Origin: a virus
Direction: 5' to 3' (one strand)
Virus record (IMG/VR): IMGVR_UViG_3300022689_000138
Location: 1 to 52,159 of that record
DNA: 52,159 nucleotides
In this document: positions 17,683 to 49,989 of the stretch, piece by piece
How the letters are laid out: every line of letters begins with the position of its first letter
How positions within the stretch are numbered: the stretch's first letter is position 1
Program-made: the position numbers and the translations under genes
The notes under the pieces: model-generated
Databases searched by the model: none
The model's input: the letters and a program-made list of their open reading frames with translations, nothing else
What the model was told of the DNA's origin: nothing

Positions 17683-19401
17683 ATGAAGGAAAATAAACAA
17701 AAAAGAAGATTAAAAACAGAGCCTAGACTAAAAGTAAAATTATCAGAGGATCAAAAAGAAGTTGTTAAAAATTTTTACGAGTATGATGTAAATTTTGTTC
17801 TAGGAGATTTTGGTTGCTTGTCATTAGGGACTAAAGTACTTATGTATAATGGAGAATTTAAAGAAGTACAAAATGTAGAAGTAGGGGATCTCTTAATGGG
17901 AGTAGATTCTACCCCTAGAAAAGTAAAGTCTTTAAAAAGAGGTAAAGAGCAAATGTATGTCGTTAAACAAAAATCTGGAGAGAATTATAAAGTAAACGCT
18001 TCTCATATTTTATCTTTAAATGAAAAGACTCAAAAAAGAATGCATCGTACTACTGATACAAATGGTAATAGAGTAATTGACTACTCTAAGCCACCATTGC
18101 ACCCAGTAAAAGAGTTTATTACAAATATATCAGTAAAAGAATACTTAAAATTAACCAAGAGTAGAAAAAGTAAATTAAAAGGGTATATAGCTCCTTGTCT
18201 TGAGTTTAAAGAAACGACTCTACCAATAGACCCTTATTATTTAGGATTATGGTTAGGAGATGGTTCAAAGCATGATATACGTTCTATAACAAATGTAGAT
18301 CCAGAAATTAAGCAGTATCTAGAAAATGCGTTTGAAGGTAGGTGGAAAAATATAACATATATAGCGGATTCTAATTCTACAATCGATTTAAAAGAAGCAT
18401 TTAAATCTTTATATAATTTAACAAATTGTACTAAACTATTTCATAAGTATATACCAAAAGAGTATTTAATAAATAGTAAGAAAAATCGACTACAATTGTT
18501 AGCAGGATTAATAGATTCAGACGGGTATTATAATAATAAAGGAGGGTATGAAATAATTCAAAAAGAAAAAGAATTAGCAGACAATATAGTATATTTATGC
18601 AGAAGTTTAGGATTTAGAACAAATATTTATACTAAGACCGCTACTTTAAAACGAAAAGGAAAACCTACTTATCATTGTGACGTATATAGAATTTCTTTTA
18701 GACCTGACATTGAGTTACCTATTAAAATAAGTAGAAAGAAAAGTAACTATATTAGGAAGCAGATAAAGGATGATAAAATACATGGTATAGAGGTAGTAAA
18801 AGATACTGTGGATAATTTCTACGGGTTCGAGCTAGATAAAGACAATTTATTTATACTAGAAGATTTTACAGTGACACATAACTCAGGTAAATCATTGTCA
18901 GCTATATATACTGCAATAGCAGCATTTAGAAAAAAACAGTTTAATAAAATATGGATTACTAGACCTATAACTAAAAATAGTTTATCTACTTTACCTGGAG
19001 ATATCAATGAAAAAATGTACCCTTATATATTTCCTTTACTACAAAACCTAGATGTATGTCAAGGTAAAGAAAATACACAGTCAATGAGAAAAAAAGGAGA
19101 GATAGAGATTATGCCTATATCAGTTGCAAAAGGGGTCACATTTATGGAATCAGTTGTTATTGTAGATGAATTTCAAGATATGACGTATGAAGATTTTAGA
19201 ACTATACTTACCAGACTTGGTAAGGAAAGTAAGGTTATCTTTTGCGGCTCTTGGCAGCAAATAGATAAATCTATAGGAAAAAGCTCTTGCATGCATATAG
19301 TAAAAGCTTTAAAAGATTCTAAATTAGTAGGATGGACAGAATTAACTGCTAATCACAGAAATACAGTATTAACAGATATAATTAATTATTTAGAAAAGTG
19401 A
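17683..19401 (+). CDS. phoH: PhoH-like ATPase with an intein in its P-loop
   Basis: The 572-aa precursor is a 216-aa PhoH-like ATPase broken by a 356-aa intein. The N-extein ends F-V-L-G-D-F-G, and the C-extein resumes S-G-K-S-L-S-A, so splicing restores the Walker A motif G-D-F-G-S-G-K-S. Walker B V-V-I-V-D-E-F-Q-D-M and the following I-F-C-G-S-W-Q-Q-I-D are typical of PhoH. Family members are common in marine phages; roles in RNA or phosphate-starvation metabolism are proposed but not settled. Without splicing the ATP site would be disrupted. It follows the zinc-ribbon gene by one base and its TGA overlaps the GTG start of the next gene. Confidence 0.9.
   Translation: MKENKQKRRLKTEPRLKVKLSEDQKEVVKNFYEYDVNFVLGDFGCLSLGTKVLMYNGEFKEVQNVEVGDLLMGVDSTPRKVKSLKRGKEQMYVVKQKSGENYKVNASHILSLNEKTQKRMHRTTDTNGNRVIDYSKPPLHPVKEFITNISVKEYLKLTKSRKSKLKGYIAPCLEFKETTLPIDPYYLGLWLGDGSKHDIRSITNVDPEIKQYLENAFEGRWKNITYIADSNSTIDLKEAFKSLYNLTNCTKLFHKYIPKEYLINSKKNRLQLLAGLIDSDGYYNNKGGYEIIQKEKELADNIVYLCRSLGFRTNIYTKTATLKRKGKPTYHCDVYRISFRPDIELPIKISRKKSNYIRKQIKDDKIHGIEVVKDTVDNFYGFELDKDNLFILEDFTVTHNSGKSLSAIYTAIAAFRKKQFNKIWITRPITKNSLSTLPGDINEKMYPYIFPLLQNLDVCQGKENTQSMRKKGEIEIMPISVAKGVTFMESVVIVDEFQDMTYEDFRTILTRLGKESKVIFCGSWQQIDKSIGKSSCMHIVKALKDSKLVGWTELTANHRNTVLTDIINYLEK
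17815..18882 (+). mobile_element. Intein with LAGLIDADG homing endonuclease
   Basis: The element starts with Cys (C-L-S-L-G-T-K-V) and ends V-T-H-N before an extein Ser, the standard splicing ends. N-A-S-H near its residue 60 matches the block B histidine. Two DOD endonuclease motifs, L-G-L-W-L-G-D-G and L-L-A-G-L-I-D-S-D-G, lie in the middle. F-Y-G-F-E-L-D closes the Hint domain. All parts look intact, so both splicing and homing may be active. It is in frame and has no stop. Confidence 0.92.
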
Positions 19402-21079: not shown

Positions 21080-21640
21080 ATGAAACTTTTTGAGTTTAAA
21101 AATTGGAAGTTAACAGTCTCTGAGGAAGCTTGGGGACTGCTTCCATTTAAAAAAATACTAGATAGAGATAAAACCAAAGAAAAAGAAAATGCATTAAAAG
21201 AAATGTTATTTATATTTTTTTGGTCTGATATTAGGTCTAATTATATAAATATGCCTGACAGTCAAAAACTAGAAGAAATAAAAAAGGATGTTGGTCTATC
21301 TAGTAAGTGGAAAAAAGACAGTGTAATAAATGAAGCTATCACTTTATATGAAAAACTAGGACAAAGTGTAATAGAAACTTTATATAAGCAATCCTTAAAG
21401 GGAGCTCAAGCAGTAGGTAATTATTTGGAAAACTCTGAAGCACTATTATATGAAAGAGATAATAATGGTAAACCAGTAAATGACATTTCTAAAATTACAA
21501 CCGCACTGCAAAAAGTACCAAACTTAATGAAGGATTTAAAAAATGCTTATAAAGAAGTAGTTAGAGAAAGAGAAGACAACGACAATAAGAAAAAAGGTAG
21601 TAAACAATTTAATACATTTGAAGATGGCCTTACATTATAA
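21080..21640 (+). CDS. Conserved-looking protein before the terminase; small terminase candidate (186 aa)
   Basis: The N-terminal 60 residues (F-E-F-K-N-W-K-L-T-V-S-E-E-A-W) are rich in aromatic residues, followed by a long helical body and a basic end. I recall proteins with this opening near terminase genes of Bacteroidetes phages, but they carry no assigned function. Position just upstream of the GroEL-like and large terminase genes makes a small terminase or packaging role possible, not shown. It overlaps the GroEL-like gene by 17 bases. Confidence 0.5.
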   Translation: MKLFEFKNWKLTVSEEAWGLLPFKKILDRDKTKEKENALKEMLFIFFWSDIRSNYINMPDSQKLEEIKKDVGLSSKWKKDSVINEAITLYEKLGQSVIETLYKQSLKGAQAVGNYLENSEALLYERDNNGKPVNDISKITTALQKVPNLMKDLKNAYKEVVREREDNDNKKKGSKQFNTFEDGLTL

Positions 21641-23072
21641 AGAAAGAAATTTAGAAGTAACTAATTTTATACAAAACGTAGTAAAAGAAATAGCAGAATA
21701 TGTTACTTTAACTATGGGACCAAATGGTCGTTATGCTGTACTAGCGGAGTTATATAACCCACCAGTAGTAACTAAAGACGGTGTATCTGTTATTAAAGCC
21801 ATAGCTGACAATGATCCATATAAAGATGCTATTATAAAACTACTATTACAAGTATCAGAGCAGACATTAGAAGAAGCTGGTGATGGTACAACTACTGCTA
21901 TATGTTTAGCAGAAGCACTGCTAGATTATGGATGTAATCAATTGGATAAGGGTAAACTTTATAAAGACGTAGAAAAAGATTTTAATAGACTTGAAAAAAA
22001 TGTATTAAAAGAACTAAATAAAATGTCTGAAGAGTTAAACCAAGAAGACATAAAAGAAGTAGCTACTATATCTGCAAATGGTGATATTAAAATGGGAGAG
22101 TTAATTCAAAAGGCCTTTGATCATTCTGACAATGTTAAAATAGAGGAAGGTACTAAAACTGAAGATGAGGTAGAAACTATAAATGGTATGATTTTAAATA
22201 CTGGTTATTTAGATAATGCTTTTATTACCAACCCAGAAAAAGACGCTATAATGTATAAAGACCCACTTGTATTTATAGTAGAGGGTACATTAAATAATTT
22301 AAAGCCACTGGCTAAAGCTGTTGATGAATCTAATGGTAAACCAGTTATAATTATAGCTGATGATGTTAATCCTAATACTCAGATATTGTTAAGAGATAAT
22401 TTTAATAAAGGTGTATTACAAATAGGTTTAATGAAAACACCAGGTTTTGGTGGACATAGAAAAAATTTAGTTAATGATTTAATAAGATATACAGGTGCTA
22501 GATTAGTAAGACATGATACTGTTCATGCTATTCCTGGGAAAATTGATAGTATTTCTATATCCAAAGAGAAGACTATTATAACAAAAAAGTATTTGTCAAC
22601 AGAATGCAAAGTATATGTAGATAAATTAAAAGAACTATATAAAAATAAAAAAGATGATTTACTTGCTAAAAGAATAAGTAATCTAAATGGCTCTATTTCA
22701 ATAATTAAAGTTGGTGGACTTACTCCAGCAGAAGTCAAAGAGAAATTTGATAGATATGACGATGCAGTAAAAGCAGTAGCTTGTGCTATTGAAGAGGGTA
22801 TAGTACCTGGTGGAGGACAGGCTCTTTCTTTAGTATCTTATAATCTAAGAGGTAAAATAAAGGCAGAGTTATTAGAGGCTTTAGATGCTCCTATAAATAC
22901 AATAGAAAAAAATTCAGATTACTCATTAAAAATCTCTTCTAGGGATATGATGAGTGAAAAAATATTTGATCCTACAAAAGTAACAAAAACAGCTATTAAA
23001 AACGCACTATCTGTGTCAAAACTACTTTTAAACTCTGGATCTATAATATTAGATAGAGCTTTATGGAAGTAA
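21624..23072 (+). CDS. groEL: GroEL-like chaperonin
   Basis: The 482-aa protein keeps the chaperonin ATP site: T-M-G-P-N-G-R near residues 32-38, V-T-K-D-G-V-S-V near 51-58, G-D-G-T-T-T-A near 88-94, and V-P-G-G-G-Q near 396-401. It is about 65 residues shorter than bacterial GroEL. Loss of that length comes from the C-terminal part and parts of the middle and apical domains; the E. coli-type G-G-M tail is absent. The ATG at 21624 is chosen; a TTG two codons earlier is less likely. It sits between a small packaging-linked gene and the large terminase, so capsid or terminase folding is the likely job. The presence of its own GroES-like gene supports a complete phage chaperonin. Confidence 0.92.
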   Translation: MALHYKERNLEVTNFIQNVVKEIAEYVTLTMGPNGRYAVLAELYNPPVVTKDGVSVIKAIADNDPYKDAIIKLLLQVSEQTLEEAGDGTTTAICLAEALLDYGCNQLDKGKLYKDVEKDFNRLEKNVLKELNKMSEELNQEDIKEVATISANGDIKMGELIQKAFDHSDNVKIEEGTKTEDEVETINGMILNTGYLDNAFITNPEKDAIMYKDPLVFIVEGTLNNLKPLAKAVDESNGKPVIIIADDVNPNTQILLRDNFNKGVLQIGLMKTPGFGGHRKNLVNDLIRYTGARLVRHDTVHAIPGKIDSISISKEKTIITKKYLSTECKVYVDKLKELYKNKKDDLLAKRISNLNGSISIIKVGGLTPAEVKEKFDRYDDAVKAVACAIEEGIVPGGGQALSLVSYNLRGKIKAELLEALDAPINTIEKNSDYSLKISSRDMMSEKIFDPTKVTKTAIKNALSVSKLLLNSGSIILDRALWK

Positions 23073-33419: not shown

Positions 33420-33950
33420 ATGCAAATTACACAATTTGAAATATCTTCTGATAGAAGTCAGATAGATGTGACTATTACGGATGCTGCTACTGTATCTACT
33501 TTAAGATTTTGGACAGATTCTACATATAAAGATTACAGTAAATCCATAGACTTGTCTTCAAAATTAACTGCATCTGCTACTGAAAATATCACTATAACCC
33601 TATCAGATGTAAGTTTACCTTTCTTTGATGGGGTTTATTTTTTAGAAGCTGAAGATCCAGATGAACTATCTAATGTAGCTGTAGCAGACCTTACAAGATA
33701 TAATGAGTGTTTAATTAATAAAGTAAAAGAAATTACTAATTGTAACACTTGTTTACAAGAAGATAATGAAGAATTACTATATTTAAACAGTTTAATACGA
33801 GCTTTAGAAATAGCTGTCAGCAAAGGATTTATAAATGAAATTCTTACATTTATAGATGCTATAAAAGTATTCTGCTCTAATGAATGTGAAAACTGTGGCT
33901 CATATGGTAATACAATAAATACAAATTATTATACTACTCCTAATGCATAA
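33420..33950 (+). CDS. Structural protein of the tail module (177 aa)
   Basis: The ATG at 33420 (MQITQFEISSDRSQIDVTIT) is chosen because an upstream GTG lies inside the terminator. A beta-sandwich-like first half is followed by helices with cysteines, for example N-C-N-T-C-L-Q and C-S-N-E-C-E-N-C-G. The cysteine group may bind metal or cross-link. First gene after the terminator. Not recognised. Confidence 0.55.
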   Translation: MQITQFEISSDRSQIDVTITDAATVSTLRFWTDSTYKDYSKSIDLSSKLTASATENITITLSDVSLPFFDGVYFLEAEDPDELSNVAVADLTRYNECLINKVKEITNCNTCLQEDNEELLYLNSLIRALEIAVSKGFINEILTFIDAIKVFCSNECENCGSYGNTINTNYYTTPNA

Positions 33951-34920
33951 CGAAAAAGTATATATAGCTAGTATGAGTAAAGCTGTTAAAGCAGCTAAAA
34001 AATTAGGTAAATTTAATCCTAAAAGGGTTTTAATGTACGGTATGGTAGCTGACTTAGTAGAATTTATGACTAATGTTCAGCAATTAGGTAATACAGTATT
34101 TGATGAAGATATAGTAGAGTTTAAAAGATGCTTAGATAAATTACAAAATAGTACTAAGGATCTTTGTAACTATAAAGTAATAGTTGCAGATAACTCTAAT
34201 ATTAATGAAACTCAAAATTTACCACCTGTAGTTTTAAATCAATCAGAGGATCTAGAAGAAAATTTATCTTATACTTTTATTCTAGATGACTTCATAGCTG
34301 GTTTTTCAGATCCTAATGGTGATTCATATAAAAATTTAATTATAAATCCAGGAGCAAATGTAAATGGAGAATTGAGGTATAATAATATTATAATAGATTC
34401 TCCAATAACTATAAATATTAGTGGGTTATCACAACTAAGTACTATTGGTTTAACTTATGTTAGAACAACTAATGATATCTTTACAGAAGATTTTACATTT
34501 AGAATATCAGATAATAATACTAATTTTTTATATTCAAATTTAGCAACCTTTACAATGTTTAGTAATGTAGTTGCTGATACAGGTAATTTACCTCCTAATG
34601 ATATTGGAGATAATACTATATATGTTCCAAACAGGGCAGAAACTATTTTAACACTAACTATGTTCACTGCAGGCCTCACTCCTCCATATAATGATCCAGA
34701 AAATGATCTAATAGATGCTATTAAAATAGTAGATATATCTAATGCAAATAGAGGTCAGTATTTACTTGGGGGAATACCTATAACTGTTGGAACAATTATT
34801 ACAAGAGAACAAATATTAAATAATGAATTTACTCATGTTGCACCAGATGAAGATGCAATAGCTTCTGATGTATTTGAATTTGAAGCTAGAGATGAAGGTT
34901 CAGGAATATGGATAGGATAA
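33943..34920 (+). CDS. Tail-module protein with tandem cadherin/Ig-like repeats (325 aa)
   Basis: A helical N-terminal 90 residues precede two repeats of about 110 residues. Each starts near N-L-P-P and has D-D-F-I-A-G-F-S-D-P-N-G-D or M-F-T-A-G-L-T-P-P-Y-N-D-P-E-N-D, a calcium-site-like pattern. The C terminus D-E-G-S-G-I-W-I-G matches D-S-G-S-G-I-F-V-S at the end of the protein at 41006-41749, so the two share a module. Likely adhesin-like tail decoration. Confidence 0.6.
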   Translation: MHNEKVYIASMSKAVKAAKKLGKFNPKRVLMYGMVADLVEFMTNVQQLGNTVFDEDIVEFKRCLDKLQNSTKDLCNYKVIVADNSNINETQNLPPVVLNQSEDLEENLSYTFILDDFIAGFSDPNGDSYKNLIINPGANVNGELRYNNIIIDSPITINISGLSQLSTIGLTYVRTTNDIFTEDFTFRISDNNTNFLYSNLATFTMFSNVVADTGNLPPNDIGDNTIYVPNRAETILTLTMFTAGLTPPYNDPENDLIDAIKIVDISNANRGQYLLGGIPITVGTIITREQILNNEFTHVAPDEDAIASDVFEFEARDEGSGIWIG

Positions 34921-35091: not shown

Positions 35092-38000
35092 ATGGCACAA
35101 GAAATTATTAATTTAGGAACACCTAATGGCCAAGATGGTGACTTTCATAGAAATGCATGGCTTAAAGCACAGAGTAATTTTAATGAGTTATATGCCTTGC
35201 AGTTTTTTACAGATAGAATTATAGCTGGTAGAGCTGCTTGGAGAGAGGGTCTTATTTTTGATGTATCAGTAGATTTATATGTATTTGATGGTCAAGTATT
35301 ACCTCCATCAGACCCTACTACTGGTGAGATATCTCCTATAGTAGCAGAAATAACTTTACCTGCTGCAGACCCATCTAACCCAAGGTTTGATATTATTACT
35401 ATAGATAATGAAGGCGTTATTTCTTTTACTGAAGGTACTCCAGCAGTAAACCCACAAATACCAAGTCCTGATTTTGATAGTCAGTTAGTTATTACTGAAG
35501 TACTTATACCAGCAGGAGCAACTGAGCCAGCAGGTGTATCAAAAATAACAATATTTAATGAAAACTTAGGAGAACCTACAGAATGGACTGCAACTGAAAC
35601 AACAGGTGGTACTAGAATTGATTTACAATCTACTGAAGACCCATCTTTAGGTACAAATAATATAGATGTATTTTTTGGTGTTAGAAATGATAGAATAGAT
35701 TTTATAAATGACATACCAGTTAACGTAGAAGACATGTCTGCGTTATCTTTAAAAATAAAAAAGAAATTTACACAGAACAGATTTTCAGTTAGAGTAAGAG
35801 CATTTAATGGTGCCAGAAGAGTATCTGGAAATATAAACATATCAAATAATAGATTTGGCTTTATAGATAGTTCTAGTGATTATCAAACTATATTAATATC
35901 AAAAGCAGATCTTAATTTAACTTCTGATGAAATAACTAGAATTTCAATAGATCTTAGAAATAATAACTCTCAGTGTTTTATTGATGATGTATCTATAGTA
36001 TTTGGAACACAAAATCCTGCTGGTACATTAGATCAAAATAATATACCTAAAGTAATAAGTAGAGTTGTAAGTAATTTAGAACCTGCTACTTTAGTTACTG
36101 AAATAAATGATGGTGATTCTTTTTTTATAGCAGATGACGAAGTTTTATTTGTAGAGTTTATTGATAATTCAGGGGATAGCCCTATTACTGAAGTATATGT
36201 TTTAGAAGGATTTGGTAAAGGTACTTATGGTACAGGAGGTCAAAATCAAATCAGTCAAAAAAATCTTAGAAAAATATCCAGACAAGTTACTCAAGAGGTA
36301 CCAGAAGTCACAGGTATTGACTTAGGAGGTCAACCTCAACAACTAATAGTATCTGGCTTTCTTAATGTATCAGGATCTATTACAACAGAGTTTGTAGGTA
36401 CTTATGATTTAATGCCTAATAAAGGTCGTATAAATCAATCAGGGGCTGATTACATTTTTGAAGAAGATGCACAATGGAATGGTTTTTATAGAGAAACTAC
36501 CCCTGGTAACTGGCAAGTAGCAATCAGAGTAGGATTTAGTGGTAATACTTGGATAATGGGTAATTACGATACTGATCCCACTACTTGGGCTACTTCTGAT
36601 CTAGTAGGTACTTCTGCTGATAAAGGAGTTTTAGCAACTGCCTCTCAAACTTTATCAGATGGTAGTTTTATACCATCTGCTTTAGACTCTAATGTAAGTT
36701 ATACAGAAGGAGGAAGTGGTGGAGAAGCTATTTTTAAACAAAAGGTAGACGATGTATTAGAATTTAAATCTATTGATGTATCAGGAGAATCTACTATTAC
36801 TAGTAATGGAAGTAGAATTTTAATTGATGTACCACAGCAAACTACTGCATGGGAAGATATAATAGGAAATCAAAAGTCAGTTACTTTAGAAGGATTTTCA
36901 GATAATACTGTTGTTAATTTAGATGCTAATTATTTTCCTGTAGTAAATGACGCTGAATGGAACGATATAGCTTTTGGTAATAATACTTATGTGGCTGTTA
37001 CTGGAAGTCCTATAACTGAGAATTTTTCTGCTTTAGATTATGTAATGACATCATCAGATGGAGAGAGTTGGACACCAAGAACTTTACCATCCCAAGTACT
37101 TCCAAGATCTGTAGCCTTTGGAAATGGAGTGTTTGTATTAGTAGGAACTGATAGATTTGATACAGTAACGCGTGTAATGACTTCTACTGATGGTATTACA
37201 TGGATAGAAAGAGCAGATACGTTAGGTAAAGATTTAGAAGGGATTACATTTGGAAATGGTTTATTTGTAGCTGTAAGTGATGAAAACAGTGGTGTAACTG
37301 GAGAAAGAGTCGTCACTTCATCAGATGGTATTACATGGACTGTAAGAACTGCTCCTGTACAACCTTGGACTGGTATAATATATGGAGATAATCTATATGT
37401 TGCTTATTCTTTTTTTCCTTCAAGTACACCAAATGTAAATGGTATTATGACATCTCCAGATGGTATAAACTGGACTCAACGAACTTTACCAAGTGCAGTT
37501 AGGATAAGTGATATGGCTTATGGTAATGGTACTTATGTAGCAACGCTTGATTCAGATGTCATTTTAATTTCTGAAGATAACGGAGTTAATTGGCAAGAGA
37601 TTACTTTACCTGTAGCAAATATTACTACAGTGACTTTTGGAAATGGTGTTTTTTTAGCATTTGCTGGAGATTACCAAACATTTAATACTATTCTTACTTC
37701 TAATGATGGTATAAATTGGACAAATTCATTTGACGCTGGTGGAGGATTAAGCATGAGAAGAGGTGTATTTGCACAAGATAAATTTGTTATAGTTGGATCT
37801 GAGGATAGTCTTGGTGGTGGTAATAACTCTAGTTTAGATGTAAATAATTTAGAATTTAAAGTTTTTGAAAACATTGTAAATCAATATAGAGTAAATGGAA
37901 TTCCAGTAACTCCAAGTAATAAAATTCTAGATATACCTATAGGACCATCGGGTATTAACGCAGTTGTTGAAGATACTTCCCCACAACTAGGTGAAAATCT

Positions 38001-38910
38001 TGATGTACAAGGTTTTAGCCTTTTTACAAATGAAAATGTTTTTGGCTTTACTGTTGATGCCGATAATAATAGTGCAGGGCAGTTTAGGTTTTCTTCAGGA
38101 CCATTACAAGTAGCATCAATTGGTAGAGGAGGAAATGAGGGAATTATTTATGTTGGTAATAGCTTAACCAACCGAGGACGCTTTGTGGCTTACGGTGATG
38201 ATTTTTTCTCTGGGGGTACGTTGCTTCTTCACAATAGTGAACTTAGAAACAATACCATTGGTGCTTGGAACATAGTTGCAGATGATGGATTAAGAATTCA
38301 GTCTGATTTAAGTACTAACCGACTTTTTCTAAAAAATACTGGACAATTACAACTTGACAATTATACACTGGATGCTTTCACAGGTACTGCTAGCAACTAC
38401 TTAGCGGTAGATGCCTCTGGAAATGTAATTACAGAACCAATTCCAAGTGGTGGAGGTAGCAGTTTTACTTATATAACTGAATCAGGTAGCCCTGGAACTA
38501 ATAACTTAGTTAATACTTTTGGTAATATTGCTGGAGGTAGAGCTGGGTTACTTATAGAAGATTATGGTGTAGGAAGTACTTCTAATATAATCAATGCAAT
38601 ATCTACTAATATACTTTTTCAAACAGATGATTTTGTAAATTCAATAACTATTTCCGCACCTAATACATTTGCAGGGATTAATGGAACAGGAGGAATAACT
38701 ATAGACTCTCCTAATTCTATTTGGATGGGTGATAATTCTGGAATGGGAGGTTTTCCAGTAAATCTTCATATAGATTCTGATAACGGTGAAATTGTTATTG
38801 ATGCTAATTTAACAACTCAAATAGTTAAAATAAATAACTTACCAACAAGTGACCCAGGTGTTTCTGGAGCTTTATGGAATGATGGTGGTTTTCTAGCTAT
38901 ATCACCGTAA
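35092..38910 (+). CDS. Large tail fibre with beta-propeller (1272 aa)
   Basis: The first 60 residues (D-G-D-F-H-R-N-A-W-L-K-A-Q-S-N-F-N-E-L) look like a virion-attachment domain. Residues about 620-905 hold six repeats of the S-S/T-D-G-I-T-W-T type, each followed by a beta stretch F-G-N-G-x-F/Y-V, the Asp-box blade pattern of sialidase-like beta-propellers. Next comes V-E-D-T-S-P-Q-L-G, a module shared with the 1044-aa fibre, then a C-terminal fibre part. Such propellers bind or cut glycans, so receptor recognition is likely; no catalytic residues can be claimed. Confidence 0.75.
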   Translation: MAQEIINLGTPNGQDGDFHRNAWLKAQSNFNELYALQFFTDRIIAGRAAWREGLIFDVSVDLYVFDGQVLPPSDPTTGEISPIVAEITLPAADPSNPRFDIITIDNEGVISFTEGTPAVNPQIPSPDFDSQLVITEVLIPAGATEPAGVSKITIFNENLGEPTEWTATETTGGTRIDLQSTEDPSLGTNNIDVFFGVRNDRIDFINDIPVNVEDMSALSLKIKKKFTQNRFSVRVRAFNGARRVSGNINISNNRFGFIDSSSDYQTILISKADLNLTSDEITRISIDLRNNNSQCFIDDVSIVFGTQNPAGTLDQNNIPKVISRVVSNLEPATLVTEINDGDSFFIADDEVLFVEFIDNSGDSPITEVYVLEGFGKGTYGTGGQNQISQKNLRKISRQVTQEVPEVTGIDLGGQPQQLIVSGFLNVSGSITTEFVGTYDLMPNKGRINQSGADYIFEEDAQWNGFYRETTPGNWQVAIRVGFSGNTWIMGNYDTDPTTWATSDLVGTSADKGVLATASQTLSDGSFIPSALDSNVSYTEGGSGGEAIFKQKVDDVLEFKSIDVSGESTITSNGSRILIDVPQQTTAWEDIIGNQKSVTLEGFSDNTVVNLDANYFPVVNDAEWNDIAFGNNTYVAVTGSPITENFSALDYVMTSSDGESWTPRTLPSQVLPRSVAFGNGVFVLVGTDRFDTVTRVMTSTDGITWIERADTLGKDLEGITFGNGLFVAVSDENSGVTGERVVTSSDGITWTVRTAPVQPWTGIIYGDNLYVAYSFFPSSTPNVNGIMTSPDGINWTQRTLPSAVRISDMAYGNGTYVATLDSDVILISEDNGVNWQEITLPVANITTVTFGNGVFLAFAGDYQTFNTILTSNDGINWTNSFDAGGGLSMRRGVFAQDKFVIVGSEDSLGGGNNSSLDVNNLEFKVFENIVNQYRVNGIPVTPSNKILDIPIGPSGINAVVEDTSPQLGENLDVQGFSLFTNENVFGFTVDADNNSAGQFRFSSGPLQVASIGRGGNEGIIYVGNSLTNRGRFVAYGDDFFSGGTLLLHNSELRNNTIGAWNIVADDGLRIQSDLSTNRLFLKNTGQLQLDNYTLDAFTGTASNYLAVDASGNVITEPIPSGGGSSFTYITESGSPGTNNLVNTFGNIAGGRAGLLIEDYGVGSTSNIINAISTNILFQTDDFVNSITISAPNTFAGINGTGGITIDSPNSIWMGDNSGMGGFPVNLHIDSDNGEIVIDANLTTQIVKINNLPTSDPGVSGALWNDGGFLAISP

Positions 38911-38926: not shown

Positions 38927-39343
38927 ATGAGAAATATTAAATTTTTATATTTTATTTTATTCATTTTAATGTCGCTACCATTAAATGCACAAAGACTTCT
39001 TGAAGAAGATAAGCAATTTCATTATGTAGCAACAGGATTGTTTGCTGTACCCACTTACTACTTCACAGTAGAGCAACTTAATCTAACTCCTTCTGAGGGA
39101 GTAATTGTTACAACAGCTTTAGGTGCATTAGGTAGTTGGGGATTTGAACATTTACAAAAAACCACAGGTAATGGTGTATATGATAAATATGACATCTTAG
39201 CAGGAACAGTTGGAGCATTTACAGGAGCTATGTTTGCTGAGGTTATTAGATATAAGCCAAGCTCTTACAAACAAAGGATGCTTAGAAAACAAAAAAGAAA
39301 AGAGAAAAGACTTAGAAAAAAACTAACTAAACATGAAAATTAA
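38927..39343 (+). CDS. Signal-peptide protein of the YfiM-like type (138 aa)
   Basis: A Sec signal peptide (MRNIKFLYFILFILMSLPLNAQ) precedes D-K-Q-F-H-Y-V-A-T-G. Hydrophobic stretches follow around residues 57-75 and 95-110 (G-T-V-G-A-F-T-G-A-M-F-A), then a very basic tail (K-Q-K-R-K-E-K-R-L-R-K-K). The D-K-x-x-H-x-x-x-G opening recalls YfiM-like envelope proteins of unknown role. It is inserted, with the protease gene, in a run of fibre genes. It overlaps the protease gene by 11 bases. Confidence 0.5.
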   Translation: MRNIKFLYFILFILMSLPLNAQRLLEEDKQFHYVATGLFAVPTYYFTVEQLNLTPSEGVIVTTALGALGSWGFEHLQKTTGNGVYDKYDILAGTVGAFTGAMFAEVIRYKPSSYKQRMLRKQKRKEKRLRKKLTKHEN

Positions 39344-41006
39344 ATTTTTATTAATTACCTTTTTTATTAGCTTGGCTACATGGTCACAATCCTGTGGTGT
39401 AATTGATGAGGAAATTAATACTAGACACGCTCAATATATTGACAGTTTACAAAGACCCGTATTATCATTTGATGTACATAATGACGTGCCTAATTTTTAC
39501 CCATTAACTATACATATAATTAGAGATAACAATGGTAATACAAACTTAAATCTAAATAATCTTTTATCTGAGATAGATTTAATGAATGACTATTATTTAC
39601 CAGCAGGTATTCAATTTTTTATATGTCAAGAAATAAACTATATTGATAACTCTAATTATTATTTTTTTAATCAGGGCCTTGAAGAAACAGAGATAGGTAA
39701 TGCATATGATATACCTAATACTATTAATATTTATTTTGCTAGTAATGTAACAAGCTCTAACGGCTCCTCATTATGTGGTTATGCTTATTATCCTGGTGGC
39801 CCATTAAGAATTATTATGTCTAATTCGTGTGCTACTAATGGAAGTACTTTAACTCATGAAATGGGGCATTTTTTTGGTTTATTACATACTCATGGTACAA
39901 GTAATACTAAAAATGCTACAAATGAACTAGCAGACGGTTCTAATGGTGCCACTGAAGGAGATAGAGTACAAGACACTCCCAGTGATCCACAACTAACTGG
40001 AGAAGTTAATTTTAATTGTATATATACCAATAATTATTTAGATAACAATGGACAACCACATAATCCAGACCCACACAACATCATGTCTTATTCAAGAAAA
40101 GAATGTCGTGATTTTATAAGTATTGGACAACTAACAGTAGTAAATCTAGTAGCTAATTCTTCTAGAAGTACTTTGATATGTTCAAATTTTAATGCTAATT
40201 TCACAGCTGACACTACTAAAATATGTGAAGGTCCATTAGAGGTTAATTTTATAGATACTAGTGTAGGAGCAGTTAATTGGGAATGGGATATTAATGCTGA
40301 TGGTAATATAGATTATATTGGACAAAATATAACTCATATTTACAATGAGTCTGGAAGCTATAATGTAGCTTTAACTATTACAAACAATGAAGGTAAAAAA
40401 ATATCTAAGGTTAAAAATAATTTTATTAATATAGGAGGGGAGATTATAGATACAGATATAATAAAATTAGAAATAACATTAGATAATTGGCCTACAGAAA
40501 CTACTTGGAAATTTGTAGATTCTAATAATAATATTCTTCTAGAAGAAAATAACTATCAACAAGCAGATAGAAATAAAACATTTAACTATGAATTAAATCT
40601 TACTAATAATGAATGTTATTCATTTATAATTACAGACCGTTTTGGAGATGGTATTTGTTGTAGTCAAGGTCCTGGTAATTATAAACTTTTAGATAATAAT
40701 GATAATATATTATTTGAAGGTGGTAGTTTTGGTAGTATAGAAGAAATTAATTTTAAAACATTAGAAAATGTTCTTTCAATAGATAATAATATTTTTTATA
40801 ATTTTAAAATGTATCCTAACCCATTTAGTAATACAATAAACCTAAATGATTTTATAGATAGTTACAAATTATATTCTATTACAGGTCAGCTTGTTTTAGA
40901 AGGAACAAATAAAGTAATCAATACAAATTCTATTAATAAAGGGTTTTATATTTTAGTAATAAAAAAAGAAAATAAAACAAAGCGCTTTAAAATAATAAAA
41001 AAATAA
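39333..41006 (+). CDS. Secreted M43-type metalloprotease with T9SS sorting domain
   Basis: The 557-aa protein has a signal peptide (residues 1-19), and a zinc protease domain with H-E-M-G-H-F-F-G-L-L-H at 175-185 and the Met-turn N-I-M-S-Y-S, as in the pappalysin/cytophagalysin M43 family. A PKD domain follows at about 290-345 (W-E-W-D-I-N-A-D-G-N). Next is a domain with D-R-F-G-D-G-I-C-C, common in marine secreted enzymes. The C-terminal type A T9SS sorting domain has Y-P-N-P-F and ends in K-R-F-K-I-I-K-K. All parts needed for export through the host's type IX machinery are present. In a phage tail module this is very unusual. It has phage-like AT content, and its stop overlaps the next fibre gene, so it is integrated in the operon. 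Confidence 0.9.
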   Translation: MKIKFLLITFFISLATWSQSCGVIDEEINTRHAQYIDSLQRPVLSFDVHNDVPNFYPLTIHIIRDNNGNTNLNLNNLLSEIDLMNDYYLPAGIQFFICQEINYIDNSNYYFFNQGLEETEIGNAYDIPNTINIYFASNVTSSNGSSLCGYAYYPGGPLRIIMSNSCATNGSTLTHEMGHFFGLLHTHGTSNTKNATNELADGSNGATEGDRVQDTPSDPQLTGEVNFNCIYTNNYLDNNGQPHNPDPHNIMSYSRKECRDFISIGQLTVVNLVANSSRSTLICSNFNANFTADTTKICEGPLEVNFIDTSVGAVNWEWDINADGNIDYIGQNITHIYNESGSYNVALTITNNEGKKISKVKNNFINIGGEIIDTDIIKLEITLDNWPTETTWKFVDSNNNILLEENNYQQADRNKTFNYELNLTNNECYSFIITDRFGDGICCSQGPGNYKLLDNNDNILFEGGSFGSIEEINFKTLENVLSIDNNIFYNFKMYPNPFSNTINLNDFIDSYKLYSITGQLVLEGTNKVINTNSINKGFYILVIKKENKTKRFKIIKK

Positions 41007-41749
41007 TGGCAACTTTTACTGTAACAGTCAATTCAAAAGATAATCAACCTCCTAATCAAATAGGTAATAATTTAATAGGTTTGGATCATAACACTGAGTA
41101 TGTATTTACGATAGATGATTTTACTACTAATACTACTCCGTCTTATTCAGACCCAGAGGATGATCCTGCAAGTAGTATTCGTATATTAGCTCTACCAGAC
41201 ATTGGCAATTTAGAATTTAACAATACACCAATTACAATTGTACCTAGAGATGTTACAAGTGTAGAATTATTAGCTGGACTACTAACTTATCAAGCTGATC
41301 CATTAAATACTGATGGGTATATATCAGGTACTTTTAAATTTGATGTGGCTGACAGTGGGTCACTACAGTACTCTGGATTAGAGGCATTTATGACTTTTAA
41401 AGTGGCCCCAGTTTCAAATTCTCCTGCTACAGAAGTAGGTGATAACTCTGTTACTATAGAATATGGAGAAGTTATTGTATTTACATCAGCAGATTTTACT
41501 ACTAATACTACACCTGCGTATAGTGATCCTGAAAATGATAACCCTGCCTTATTAAGAATAGACAGTTTACCTTCTTCTGGAACATTACTACTTAATAATG
41601 TACCAGTAGTAATTAATCAAGTTATTTTATTTTCTGATATAGCCGCTGGTAATCTTACTTTTGAAAATGATCCCACTGATACTGACGGAGAGACAACTAA
41701 TTTTAATTTTTCAATTGCTGATTCTGGATCAGGTATTTTTGTAAGCTAA
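41006..41749 (+). CDS. Tail-module protein with two cadherin/Ig-like repeats (247 aa)
   Basis: Two repeats of about 120 residues each contain D-F-T-T-N-T-T-P-x-Y-S-D-P-E-D/N-D and a following L-P-x-x-G-x-L pattern. This corresponds to the repeats of the protein at 33943-34920 without its helical N terminus. Start and stop codons overlap both neighbours. A calcium-dependent adhesin or fibre spacer is the most likely role. Confidence 0.6.
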   Translation: MATFTVTVNSKDNQPPNQIGNNLIGLDHNTEYVFTIDDFTTNTTPSYSDPEDDPASSIRILALPDIGNLEFNNTPITIVPRDVTSVELLAGLLTYQADPLNTDGYISGTFKFDVADSGSLQYSGLEAFMTFKVAPVSNSPATEVGDNSVTIEYGEVIVFTSADFTTNTTPAYSDPENDNPALLRIDSLPSSGTLLLNNVPVVINQVILFSDIAAGNLTFENDPTDTDGETTNFNFSIADSGSGIFVS

Positions 41750-48251: not shown

Positions 48252-48554
48252 ATGAAAAGTGAGCTACCTAATGAAATCGACCCTACTAAATTTACAACGG
48301 AGGAGCTAATTAAACATAATTATAGACATATCCAAATTATAGAAAAAAATCAAGAGGATATGAATAATAAATTTTCAGAAAAATTAGACAATCTTTCTTT
48401 ATCTTTAGCTGAACTAAATCAAAAGTATTTTGCAGAAGAAACTCAAAAAGAAGATTCTAAAAATAGAAAGTATTTAACTTGGACTATTATTGCTTCTTTA
48501 GCGGCAGTATTAACCGTTATAATAGAGGGACTAGTAGGGTTATTTGAAAAATAA
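48252..48554 (+). CDS. Holin or lysis-linked membrane protein (100 aa)
   Basis: A charged helical N-terminal 70 residues with a coiled coil (S-E-K-L-D-N-L-S-L-S-L-A-E-L) precede a single C-terminal membrane helix (residues 76-96). It lies at the head of the lysis cassette. Topology would suit a pinholin- or antiholin-like role; not proven. Confidence 0.55.
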   Translation: MKSELPNEIDPTKFTTEELIKHNYRHIQIIEKNQEDMNNKFSEKLDNLSLSLAELNQKYFAEETQKEDSKNRKYLTWTIIASLAAVLTVIIEGLVGLFEK

Positions 48555-48555
48555 A

Positions 48556-48720
48556 ATGATAATAACTAATAAAGACATAGAATTAATAACTAATATACTT
48601 TTAAGTATATGGTCTATAGTTGGTATTTTTAGTGAGATAAAAGCCTTTTTAAAAAATAAATCTCAAAAAAAATTAGCAGATAGACAACTAGAAGAAGAAA
48701 TAGCAGATGGCTTTGACTAA
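48556..48720 (+). CDS. Small holin candidate (54 aa)
   Basis: The ATG at 48556 is one base after the previous stop. MIITNKDIELITNILLSIWS leads into a hydrophobic helix (residues 9-28) and an acidic and basic tail. The 14-base overlap with the endolysin gene is typical for holin-endolysin pairs. Confidence 0.6.
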   Translation: MIITNKDIELITNILLSIWSIVGIFSEIKAFLKNKSQKKLADRQLEEEIADGFD

Positions 48721-49357
48721 AAAAATTAAAAGAGGTATAATAGCTTTAACTGCTTCAGCGGCTATAGCTATAGGTATTACTGTGTCTATAGAAGACACAA
48801 TAAATAATAATACAGCAGAACACTGTGATTGTATATATCCAGAACCAAAAAACTCTAATTTAAATATGTTTAGAGATGTTAGTGAGTGGGTAGATCCAAA
48901 TGATTTAAGGAGGCTTAGAAAACTAGCTAAGTCAGATGGTGCTACTCCTATATATATAGTATTTCACCACACTGTTACGTCAGAAGGCACAACTGGTAAA
49001 GAGTTATGTACTATTACAGATAATAGATTTAATCTAGGTTGTTCCTATGCTATATCTGTTCATACTAATGGAGTAGTATTACAATTAAATAATTTTCAAG
49101 ATCACACTCCTAGTGTAGGTGGAAAAAACAGTATAGTTATTTCAATAGCATTTGTTGGTAATTTTCAAAATAAAGAGTTACCACCAATAATGTTAAAAAG
49201 AGCCTGTCAAATAAGAGCTGCTTTAGAGCAGTTTGATGAACAAGAGGAAGACTTTGAAATTAAAGCATTTACTTCCCATAGGCATTTTAAAAATACTAAA
49301 TGCCCTGGAGAAAAAGCATATCAACAACTTTGTGATCACAATATAATAGATTTTTAA
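48707..49357 (+). CDS. Endolysin: zinc N-acetylmuramoyl-L-alanine amidase
   Basis: The 216-aa protein cleaves the amide bond between muramic acid and the stem peptide. An N-terminal membrane helix (residues 9-27) may be a signal-anchor, so export without a holin is possible. The amidase_2/PGRP domain shows F-H-H-T-V near 86-90, S-H-R-H near 190-193 and K-C-P-G near 198-201; H87 or H88, H191 and C199 are the likely zinc ligands, as in T7 lysozyme. It is flanked by a holin candidate and a spanin-like pair. Confidence 0.9.
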   Translation: MALTKKIKRGIIALTASAAIAIGITVSIEDTINNNTAEHCDCIYPEPKNSNLNMFRDVSEWVDPNDLRRLRKLAKSDGATPIYIVFHHTVTSEGTTGKELCTITDNRFNLGCSYAISVHTNGVVLQLNNFQDHTPSVGGKNSIVISIAFVGNFQNKELPPIMLKRACQIRAALEQFDEQEEDFEIKAFTSHRHFKNTKCPGEKAYQQLCDHNIIDF

Positions 49358-49358
49358 T

Positions 49359-49748
49359 ATGATATCTTTAATATATAATTATATAAAAAACCAATCTATA
49401 CAATTTAAAATTTTATTAGGAGTTTTTATTATCTCATTCTTAGTAGGTTTAGGACTTTTTATAAATTTAGCAATTGTAAAATATAAATACTATAAACAAT
49501 TAGAAAATAACCATGAAAAGTTAATATCTGATTATGATACTCTTAGAGAAGAAAGAGAAGTAAAAGTAGAAACTTTGTATGTTTTTACTAAAGCAACTAA
49601 AGAAAAAAGCGATAATTATGATAAAGAATACGATGATGCTGTTAAAAAAATTTACAATACTAAGTATACTGATGATGAGCTTATCCAGTTTTTCGCAGAG
49701 TACGAAAGAAGGGCTGACAGTATCAAGAGAGGCAGCGGTTCTAATTAA
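49359..49748 (+). CDS. Inner-membrane spanin-like protein (129 aa)
   Basis: One membrane helix (residues 17-39) near the N terminus is followed by a long periplasmic helix with heptad-like pattern (Q-L-E-N-N-H-E-K-L-I-S-D-Y-D-T-L-R-E-E). This is the i-spanin (Rz) layout. It follows the endolysin by one base and overlaps the next gene in another frame over about 130 bases, as spanin pairs often do. Confidence 0.65.
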   Translation: MISLIYNYIKNQSIQFKILLGVFIISFLVGLGLFINLAIVKYKYYKQLENNHEKLISDYDTLREEREVKVETLYVFTKATKEKSDNYDKEYDDAVKKIYNTKYTDDELIQFFAEYERRADSIKRGSGSN

Positions 49749-49989
49749 AAAAGATTTAGAAAAAGCTAAACTTACTGAGATTACATTAGCAAAAAAAAGT
49801 AAGCTCTTAGATGAGTTAATAGTTTCTAATCTTAAAACAATACAAGAGTTAGAAGAGTCTTTTAAAAAAGAAAAAGAGCTTAGTGAAGATATTAAAAAAT
49901 CAGCTAAAAAATTAAGGAGAGCTAAGACTGCTAATTGGATTTTACCTGGCGCTGCATTTTTATTAGGGTTTGTACTAGGCTCTAACTAA
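49618..49989 (+). CDS. Exported coiled-coil protein overlapping the i-spanin (123 aa)
   Basis: The ATG at 49618 lies within the i-spanin gene in the +1 frame; the signal peptide is M-M-L-L-K-K-F-T-I-L-S-I-L-M-M-S-L-S-S-F. The mature part is a long coiled coil (residues 35-100) and ends in a C-terminal hydrophobic helix W-I-L-P-G-A-A-F-L-L-G-F-V-L-G. The position fits an o-spanin, but there is no lipobox, so attachment would be through the C-terminal helix. A start five codons downstream is also possible. Confidence 0.6.
   Translation: MIKNTMMLLKKFTILSILMMSLSSFSQSTKEGLTVSREAAVLIKKDLEKAKLTEITLAKKSKLLDELIVSNLKTIQELEESFKKEKELSEDIKKSAKKLRRAKTANWILPGAAFLLGFVLGSN

Follow-up and report, generated by a model that had tools for sequence, protein, structure and literature searches.

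A T9SS-addressed M43 metalloprotease and a VanZ-like protein form a putative gene cassette in two unrelated phage families

The window analysed here, a stretch of 52,159 bases that makes up the whole of virus record IMGVR_UViG_3300022689_000138, carries among its virion genes a gene for a 557-aa metalloprotease (39333–41006) with a C-terminal sorting domain of the type IX secretion system (T9SS), preceded by a gene for a small VanZ-like protein. Judged from the predicted proteins, the pair is a recurring cassette found in two unrelated phage families rather than a one-off, and it hints at a reusable means by which phages change the surface of the infected cell late in infection. The reading put forward here, to which we assign a probability of about 0.5, is that a late, host-exported protease trims the surface of the infected cell, which would aid virion release and block re-adsorption. 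Within this reading, the T9SS-dependent export of the protease is highly probable, and the proposed substrate and benefit stand at roughly even odds.

The record is linear, lacks end repeats and probably represents about half of a genome. By its gene content it is a Crassvirales phage, of a kind known from the infection of Flavobacteriaceae. The terminase, portal and major capsid protein (MCP) belong to crAss-like families (phrog_6681, phrog_6547 and phrog_11589, respectively). The best matches of the terminase (TerL) are in Steigviridae phages, at 42% identity, and the portal and MCP are 58% and 62% identical to those of Cellulophaga phage phi14:2 (Steigviridae, Asinivirinae). Gene kinship and relatives such as phi14:2 point to marine-type bacteria of the Flavobacteriaceae as the probable host. 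Elsewhere, the record encodes a protein of 572 aa that is terminase-like in its N-terminal half and resembles PhoH in the C-terminal one (17683–19401), as well as a GroEL-type chaperonin (21618–23072) whose gene lies immediately 5′ of the terminase gene and overlaps it.

The protease is encoded on the plus strand, as are the VanZ-like gene, the genes at 35092 and 41006 and the lysis region, in a frame without internal stop. It starts with a Sec-type signal peptide of about residues 1–19 (39333–39389), called from sequence reading and hydropathy alone: a hydrophobic stretch with a mean Kyte–Doolittle value of 2.4 over 12 residues is followed by a 'WSQ|S' c-region, and the segment lines up with the corresponding signal region in bacterial homologues. 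The signal is followed by an M43 (pappalysin) metzincin domain (39483–40199; PF05572, Peptidase_M43, 25.3 bits, cut-off 23), which also matches ulilysin by sequence (E=6e-6), and by a PKD domain (40209–40403; PF18911, PKD_4, 37.1 bits, cut-off 27; PF00801, 33 bits). In addition to the domains named in the initial annotation, a GDGICC-type beta domain of about residues 374–474 (40452–40754), a kind also found in secreted bacterial proteins, sits between the PKD and sorting domains, recognized by tblastn matches to Persicobacter and Vibrio plasmid sequences and present collinearly in the bacterial homologues. The extreme C-terminus (residues 493–557; 40809–41003) is a T9SS type A sorting domain according to both NCBIfam (TIGR04183, positions 1–72 of 72, 39.8 bits, cut-off 23) and Pfam (Por_Secre_tail, 33.3 bits, cut-off 27). 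A TIGR04183 scan of the whole record returned this domain as its sole T9SS match (45.3 bits, E = 4e-13), which places the match far beyond chance. The zinc motif, Met-turn and YPNP...KRFKIIKK tail described in the initial annotation are thus all present in the translated frame, its Sec signal is visible in sequence and hydropathy, and its M43, PKD and T9SS assignments each exceed the curated cut-off; a C-terminus unrelated to the T9SS family, which it had considered, is contradicted by the match over the full 72 positions.

On the basis of sequence and a structural model, the 557-aa protein is an M43 peptidase with an intact predicted active site. In the zinc site HEMGHFFGLLH (39855–39887) the ligands H175, H179 and H185, the catalytic E176 and the glycine column are invariant among 36 M43 homologues, and M251 of the Met-turn NIMSY (40077–40091) is nearly so (at least 90% conserved). 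An AlphaFold model of the M43 domain built with the 36 homologues reached a pLDDT of 92.3, and a Foldseek search with it gave ulilysin as the best match (E 1.5e-13), with PAPP-A and mirolysin also found. A model of the full-length protease was discarded (pLDDT 55), and the M43 domain was modelled alone instead. The C229/C258 pair is intact as well. The preservation of the zinc site, the Met-turn, this pair and the sorting domain despite phage-like codons argues that the protease retains its function and is not a recent accident.

The nearest bacterial kin are proteases encoded on Flavobacteriaceae chromosomes. Their domains follow the same order over the whole length, from the signal through to the sorting domain, and their end-to-end identity is 40–43% and at best 48%; the gene was therefore captured from Flavobacteriaceae-type hosts. 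SprA, the T9SS translocon, is encoded in all seven tested genomes with the closest homologues. In named phages, no relatives of the protease were found at E≤1e-5. The codon use of the gene diverges from that of the rest of the phage by 0.034 (GC3 0.125), compared to 0.077–0.20 for seven bacterial homologues; together with the gene overlaps, the synteny of the flanks and the second phage described below, this places the protease gene in the phage genome. For a phage gene that combines an intact M43 domain with a complete type A address, and whose closest bacterial carriers encode SprA, the natural interpretation is that the host machine is used. The earlier proposal of a phage protease addressed to the host T9SS is backed by the same type A domain and SprA counts and by the location of the gene in the virion operon.

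The two genes lie exactly between a gene for a 1272-aa fibre (35092–38910) and a gene for a virion protein (41006–41749; phrog_22884, 43% identity to phi14:2 g080) that starts within the protease stop codon. The fibre has a conserved N-terminal anchor, its first 35–39 residues being common to fibres in relatives G006 and G007 and weakly to phi14:2 g081. The fibre gene ends 16 bases before the VanZ-like gene, which overlaps the protease gene by 11 bases; the protease gene in turn overlaps the 41006 gene by 1 base (TAATG). This short gap and the overlaps suggest co-transcription. A start/stop overlap with fibre genes had been described; the 3′ overlap is indeed with a virion gene, but the 5′ overlap is with the VanZ-like gene. 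A scan for a flavobacterial-type promoter 5′ of the pair, which phage-specific promoters would escape, found none. In phi14:2, g083 and g080 are the orthologues of the 33943 and 41006 genes, and g081 is a fibre whose N-terminal anchor resembles that of the 35092 fibre (weakly, E=0.01); all three proteins were detected in virions by MS/MS. Between the homologues of the 33943 and 41006 genes, the slot is empty in relative G002 and filled by two fibre/beta-helix genes in G006. Because phi14:2, G002 and G006 differ at this position, the pair is considered to occupy a variable host-interaction slot in the virion operon. The virion genes at the borders of the slot (33943–34920 and 41006–41749) both match phrog_22884, and g083 and g080 of phi14:2 show the same cross-similarity, as expected if an old duplication flanks the variable fibre slot. 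The lysis region (48252–49989) contains an Amidase_2 endolysin gene (48707–49357; 39.3 bits, phrog_822) along with holin-like, Rz-like and o-spanin-like genes, these three roles being assigned from size and membrane segments.

The first gene of the cassette (38927–39343) encodes a 138-aa VanZ-like protein that is predicted to be secreted from its signal-like N-terminus and has a strongly basic C-terminal tail. The VanZ profile scores 21 bits, below its cut-off of 30, and sequence profiles gave no TIMP family match. The protein has no match at E≤1e-6 in 300 Flavobacteriaceae genomes, as expected for a phage gene. Its one relative in IMG/VR (L278:227-619; 58.6% identity over 116 residues) is encoded by a second phage, G351 (IMGVR_UViG_3300040801_001406, locus L278). 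The very basic tail (RKQKRKEKRLRK) is common to both VanZ-like proteins and could act on the envelope. Directly 3′ of the VanZ-like gene in G351, and overlapping it, lies a gene whose 356-aa product combines a signal-like N-terminus with a metzincin domain (35% identity to the M43 region of the window) and a T9SS domain above cut-off (TIGR04183 33.8 bits; PF18962 35.8 bits) and lacks PKD and GDGICC domains. The G351 terminase is 52% identical to those of Pachyviridae Cellulophaga phages and has no significant pairwise match to the window terminase. In G351, the pair is followed by an Amidase_2 endolysin gene and spanin-like genes, which points to an action of the cassette at the end of infection. 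In a tree, the proteases of the two phages both lie on long branches and do not make up a proven clade; either one capture with loss or two captures may lie behind them.

The G351 protease has no relatives in named phages at E≤1e-3. In IMG/VR, neither the scans with single proteins nor the first profile scans picked up G351 itself, which was found via the neighbouring gene and confirmed with a phage-aware profile; 'no relative' outcomes of those scans are therefore weak. Among the records searched, only two phages have the cassette, which counts against the reading put forward here, although scans of this kind depend on short conserved peptides and may overlook relatives. A survey of Bacteroidetes phages for T9SS domains had been suggested by the initial annotation. 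TIGR04183 scores above cut-off in 3 of 99 crAss-like or related virus records, including the window, a count that is not an unbiased rate as many records are fragments and G351 was chosen for its VanZ-like gene; among ten named phages there is no match above cut-off. In the crAss-like relative G031, an HYR-type protein of 863 aa (L086 1540–4131; G031:C1:19540-22131, minus strand) combines a signal-like N-terminus with a T9SS sorting domain; its gene lies far from the virion genes and has a G+C content of 0.36 versus 0.31 for the contig; this match is real, but unrelated to the VanZ-like/protease cassette. T9SS matches in G014, G376 and DAC15 were discarded, as they score 12–14 bits, below cut-off.

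In the proposed mechanism, the cassette would be transcribed late, together with the tail genes. The protease would leave the cytoplasm by Sec via its signal peptide and then, as its tag implies, pass through the host's own T9SS to the cell surface or medium. There it would cut surface proteins of the infected cell, for instance adhesins that the T9SS exports and that serve as phage receptors, or envelope proteins standing in the way of lysis. The progeny virions could then depart freely, without re-binding to the dying cell, debris or infected neighbours. The small VanZ-like protein would be the second exported product of the cassette. A point against this scheme is that T9SS export, folding and surface cleavage would all have to take place before lysis. 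The gld/spr T9SS genes are where phage resistance of F. columnare has been mapped (PMC9233685). For C. baltica, the literature considers that SprB and RemA, both exported by the T9SS, may be receptors (PMC13288928). Given these observations, late removal of T9SS-exported proteins would be expected to prevent re-adsorption. Furthermore, the Mtz/Tim metzincin pair of Listeria, which is of phage origin, increases virions about 5-fold (PMC8235301). A role at release is favoured because the G351 pair adjoins lysis genes and the Listeria pair raises virion release.

Other roles have to be weighed against this late surface trimming. The protease might be an auxiliary nutrition gene, digesting outside protein and thereby feeding virus production. 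This is unlikely, even though the homology to secreted proteases of Flavobacteriaceae, found at E≤1e-40 in 47 of the 300 genomes of the family, extends over the full length of the protein, and polysaccharide-degrading enzymes are among the T9SS cargo published for Cryophage. If these bacterial proteases serve to scavenge nutrients, as they may, a metabolic role would gain weight over surface trimming. However, the gene is located in a virion operon and not with early or metabolic genes, and the G351 copy precedes lysis genes, so that a late enzyme would leave little time for nutrient payback. A literature search found, with the terms chosen, no report of viral secreted peptidases as metabolic genes.

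A carrier state, in which a long-lived infected host gains a surface enzyme for competition or superinfection exclusion, is improbable. For the Cryophage cargo, Bellas et al. suggested a part in excluding superinfection or in competition between strains (PMC7468147), but the location within structural genes suggests expression only during virion production, and the promoter scan, with its blindness to phage-specific promoters, gave no sign of separate expression of the pair. It is similarly doubtful that the protease is a virion component that removes surface layers or matrix when infection begins. Its gene is surrounded by fibre genes, and where the slot is otherwise filled it holds fibre or beta-helix proteins; some virion proteins of Cellulophaga phage phi18:3 detected by MS/MS have signal-like N-termini; yet the signal and the complete T9SS tag would route the protease away from cytoplasmic assembly, it has no PHROGs match at E≤0.1 and no virion attachment domain was found in it. 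The phi18:3 proteins are the structural proteins gp085 and gp087 (KC821620, L283; 525–2168 and 4538–6217), whose Sec-signal-like N-termini (e.g. MKHTFSIVLFFILSIGLNAQ) are unexpected for cytoplasm-assembled proteins. Finally, an assembly chimera or host contamination, a risk raised at the outset and suggested by the clear similarity to bacterial proteins and nothing further, was rejected as extremely improbable, since the genes overlap on both sides, the flanks are syntenic with other phages, codon use is phage-like, identity to known bacterial copies is just 40–48% and the same gene pair occurs in another phage contig.

T9SS cargo had been taken for an undescribed phage strategy, but reports of it date from 2019 and 2020. 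In one cluster of crAss-like phages with BACON domains, de Jonge et al. (2019) noted that proteins carrying T9SS sorting domains are encoded near the head genes (PMC6949934), and in Cryophage Bellas et al. (2020) described three genes for T9SS type A cargo and proposed hijacking of the host system and superinfection exclusion (PMC7468147). The BACON cluster 2 phages resemble the window in their crAss-like context and in the proximity of T9SS-tagged proteins to head genes, but their cargo consists of BACON-domain proteins with no assigned role instead of a protease cassette. Cryophage likewise has Bacteroidetes phage enzymes ending in a T9SS type A domain at variable genome positions; as far as its description goes, however, its cargo is an endoglucanase, a GH39 and a PA14 protein, with no M43 domain and no VanZ-like partner.

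The chromosomal M43–PKD–T9SS proteases of Psychroserpens and other Flavobacteriaceae share the domain order of the phage protein end to end (40–48% identity), but are cellular and come without the VanZ-like partner in the 300 genomes of the family. The M43 pappalysins ulilysin and mirolysin share the catalytic fold and metal site; they are not phage-encoded, and the PKD and T9SS parts of the window protein lie outside the matched stretch. The Listeria Mtz/Tim pair is comparable as an adjacent secreted metzincin and small secreted partner of phage origin that aids lysis and release, but it belongs to a Gram-positive host without T9SS and its partner is TIMP-like instead of VanZ-like (PMC8235301). 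Maribacter phage Colly_1, an isolated Flavobacteriaceae phage, also encodes an apparently exported metzincin, gp9 (MT732450; L295 3407–4006). In contrast to the window protease, gp9 is a 199-aa matrixin-type lipoprotein without T9SS domain, and its export route is deduced from the CSKEE after its lipobox, which fits K-(D/E)2, a surface-export signal of Bacteroidetes lipoproteins (PMC5080379). Colly_1 gp9 may thus represent a second, convergent phage route for placing a metzincin on the host surface. Relative to the papers searched, the M43 protease as phage T9SS cargo, the two-gene cassette with a VanZ-like partner that recurs across two phage families, and its fibre-slot and lysis-module contexts are new.

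A broader proposal is tentative and rather less likely than the reading for this phage: unrelated flavobacterial phages may share a mobile late two-gene module of a basic secreted VanZ-like protein and a T9SS-exported metzincin that remodels the cell exterior, providing a new outer step of release together with receptor removal, with other flavophages such as Colly_1 achieving this via a surface lipoprotein. Phage lysis is usually described as proceeding from the inside out, by holin, endolysin and spanin. A protease exported by the host machine would, if true, add an outside-in step to lysis and explain why a host-derived protease is retained among phage tail genes. In the Flavobacteriaceae, the same T9SS would then deliver both the candidate receptor and the phage enzyme able to remove it.
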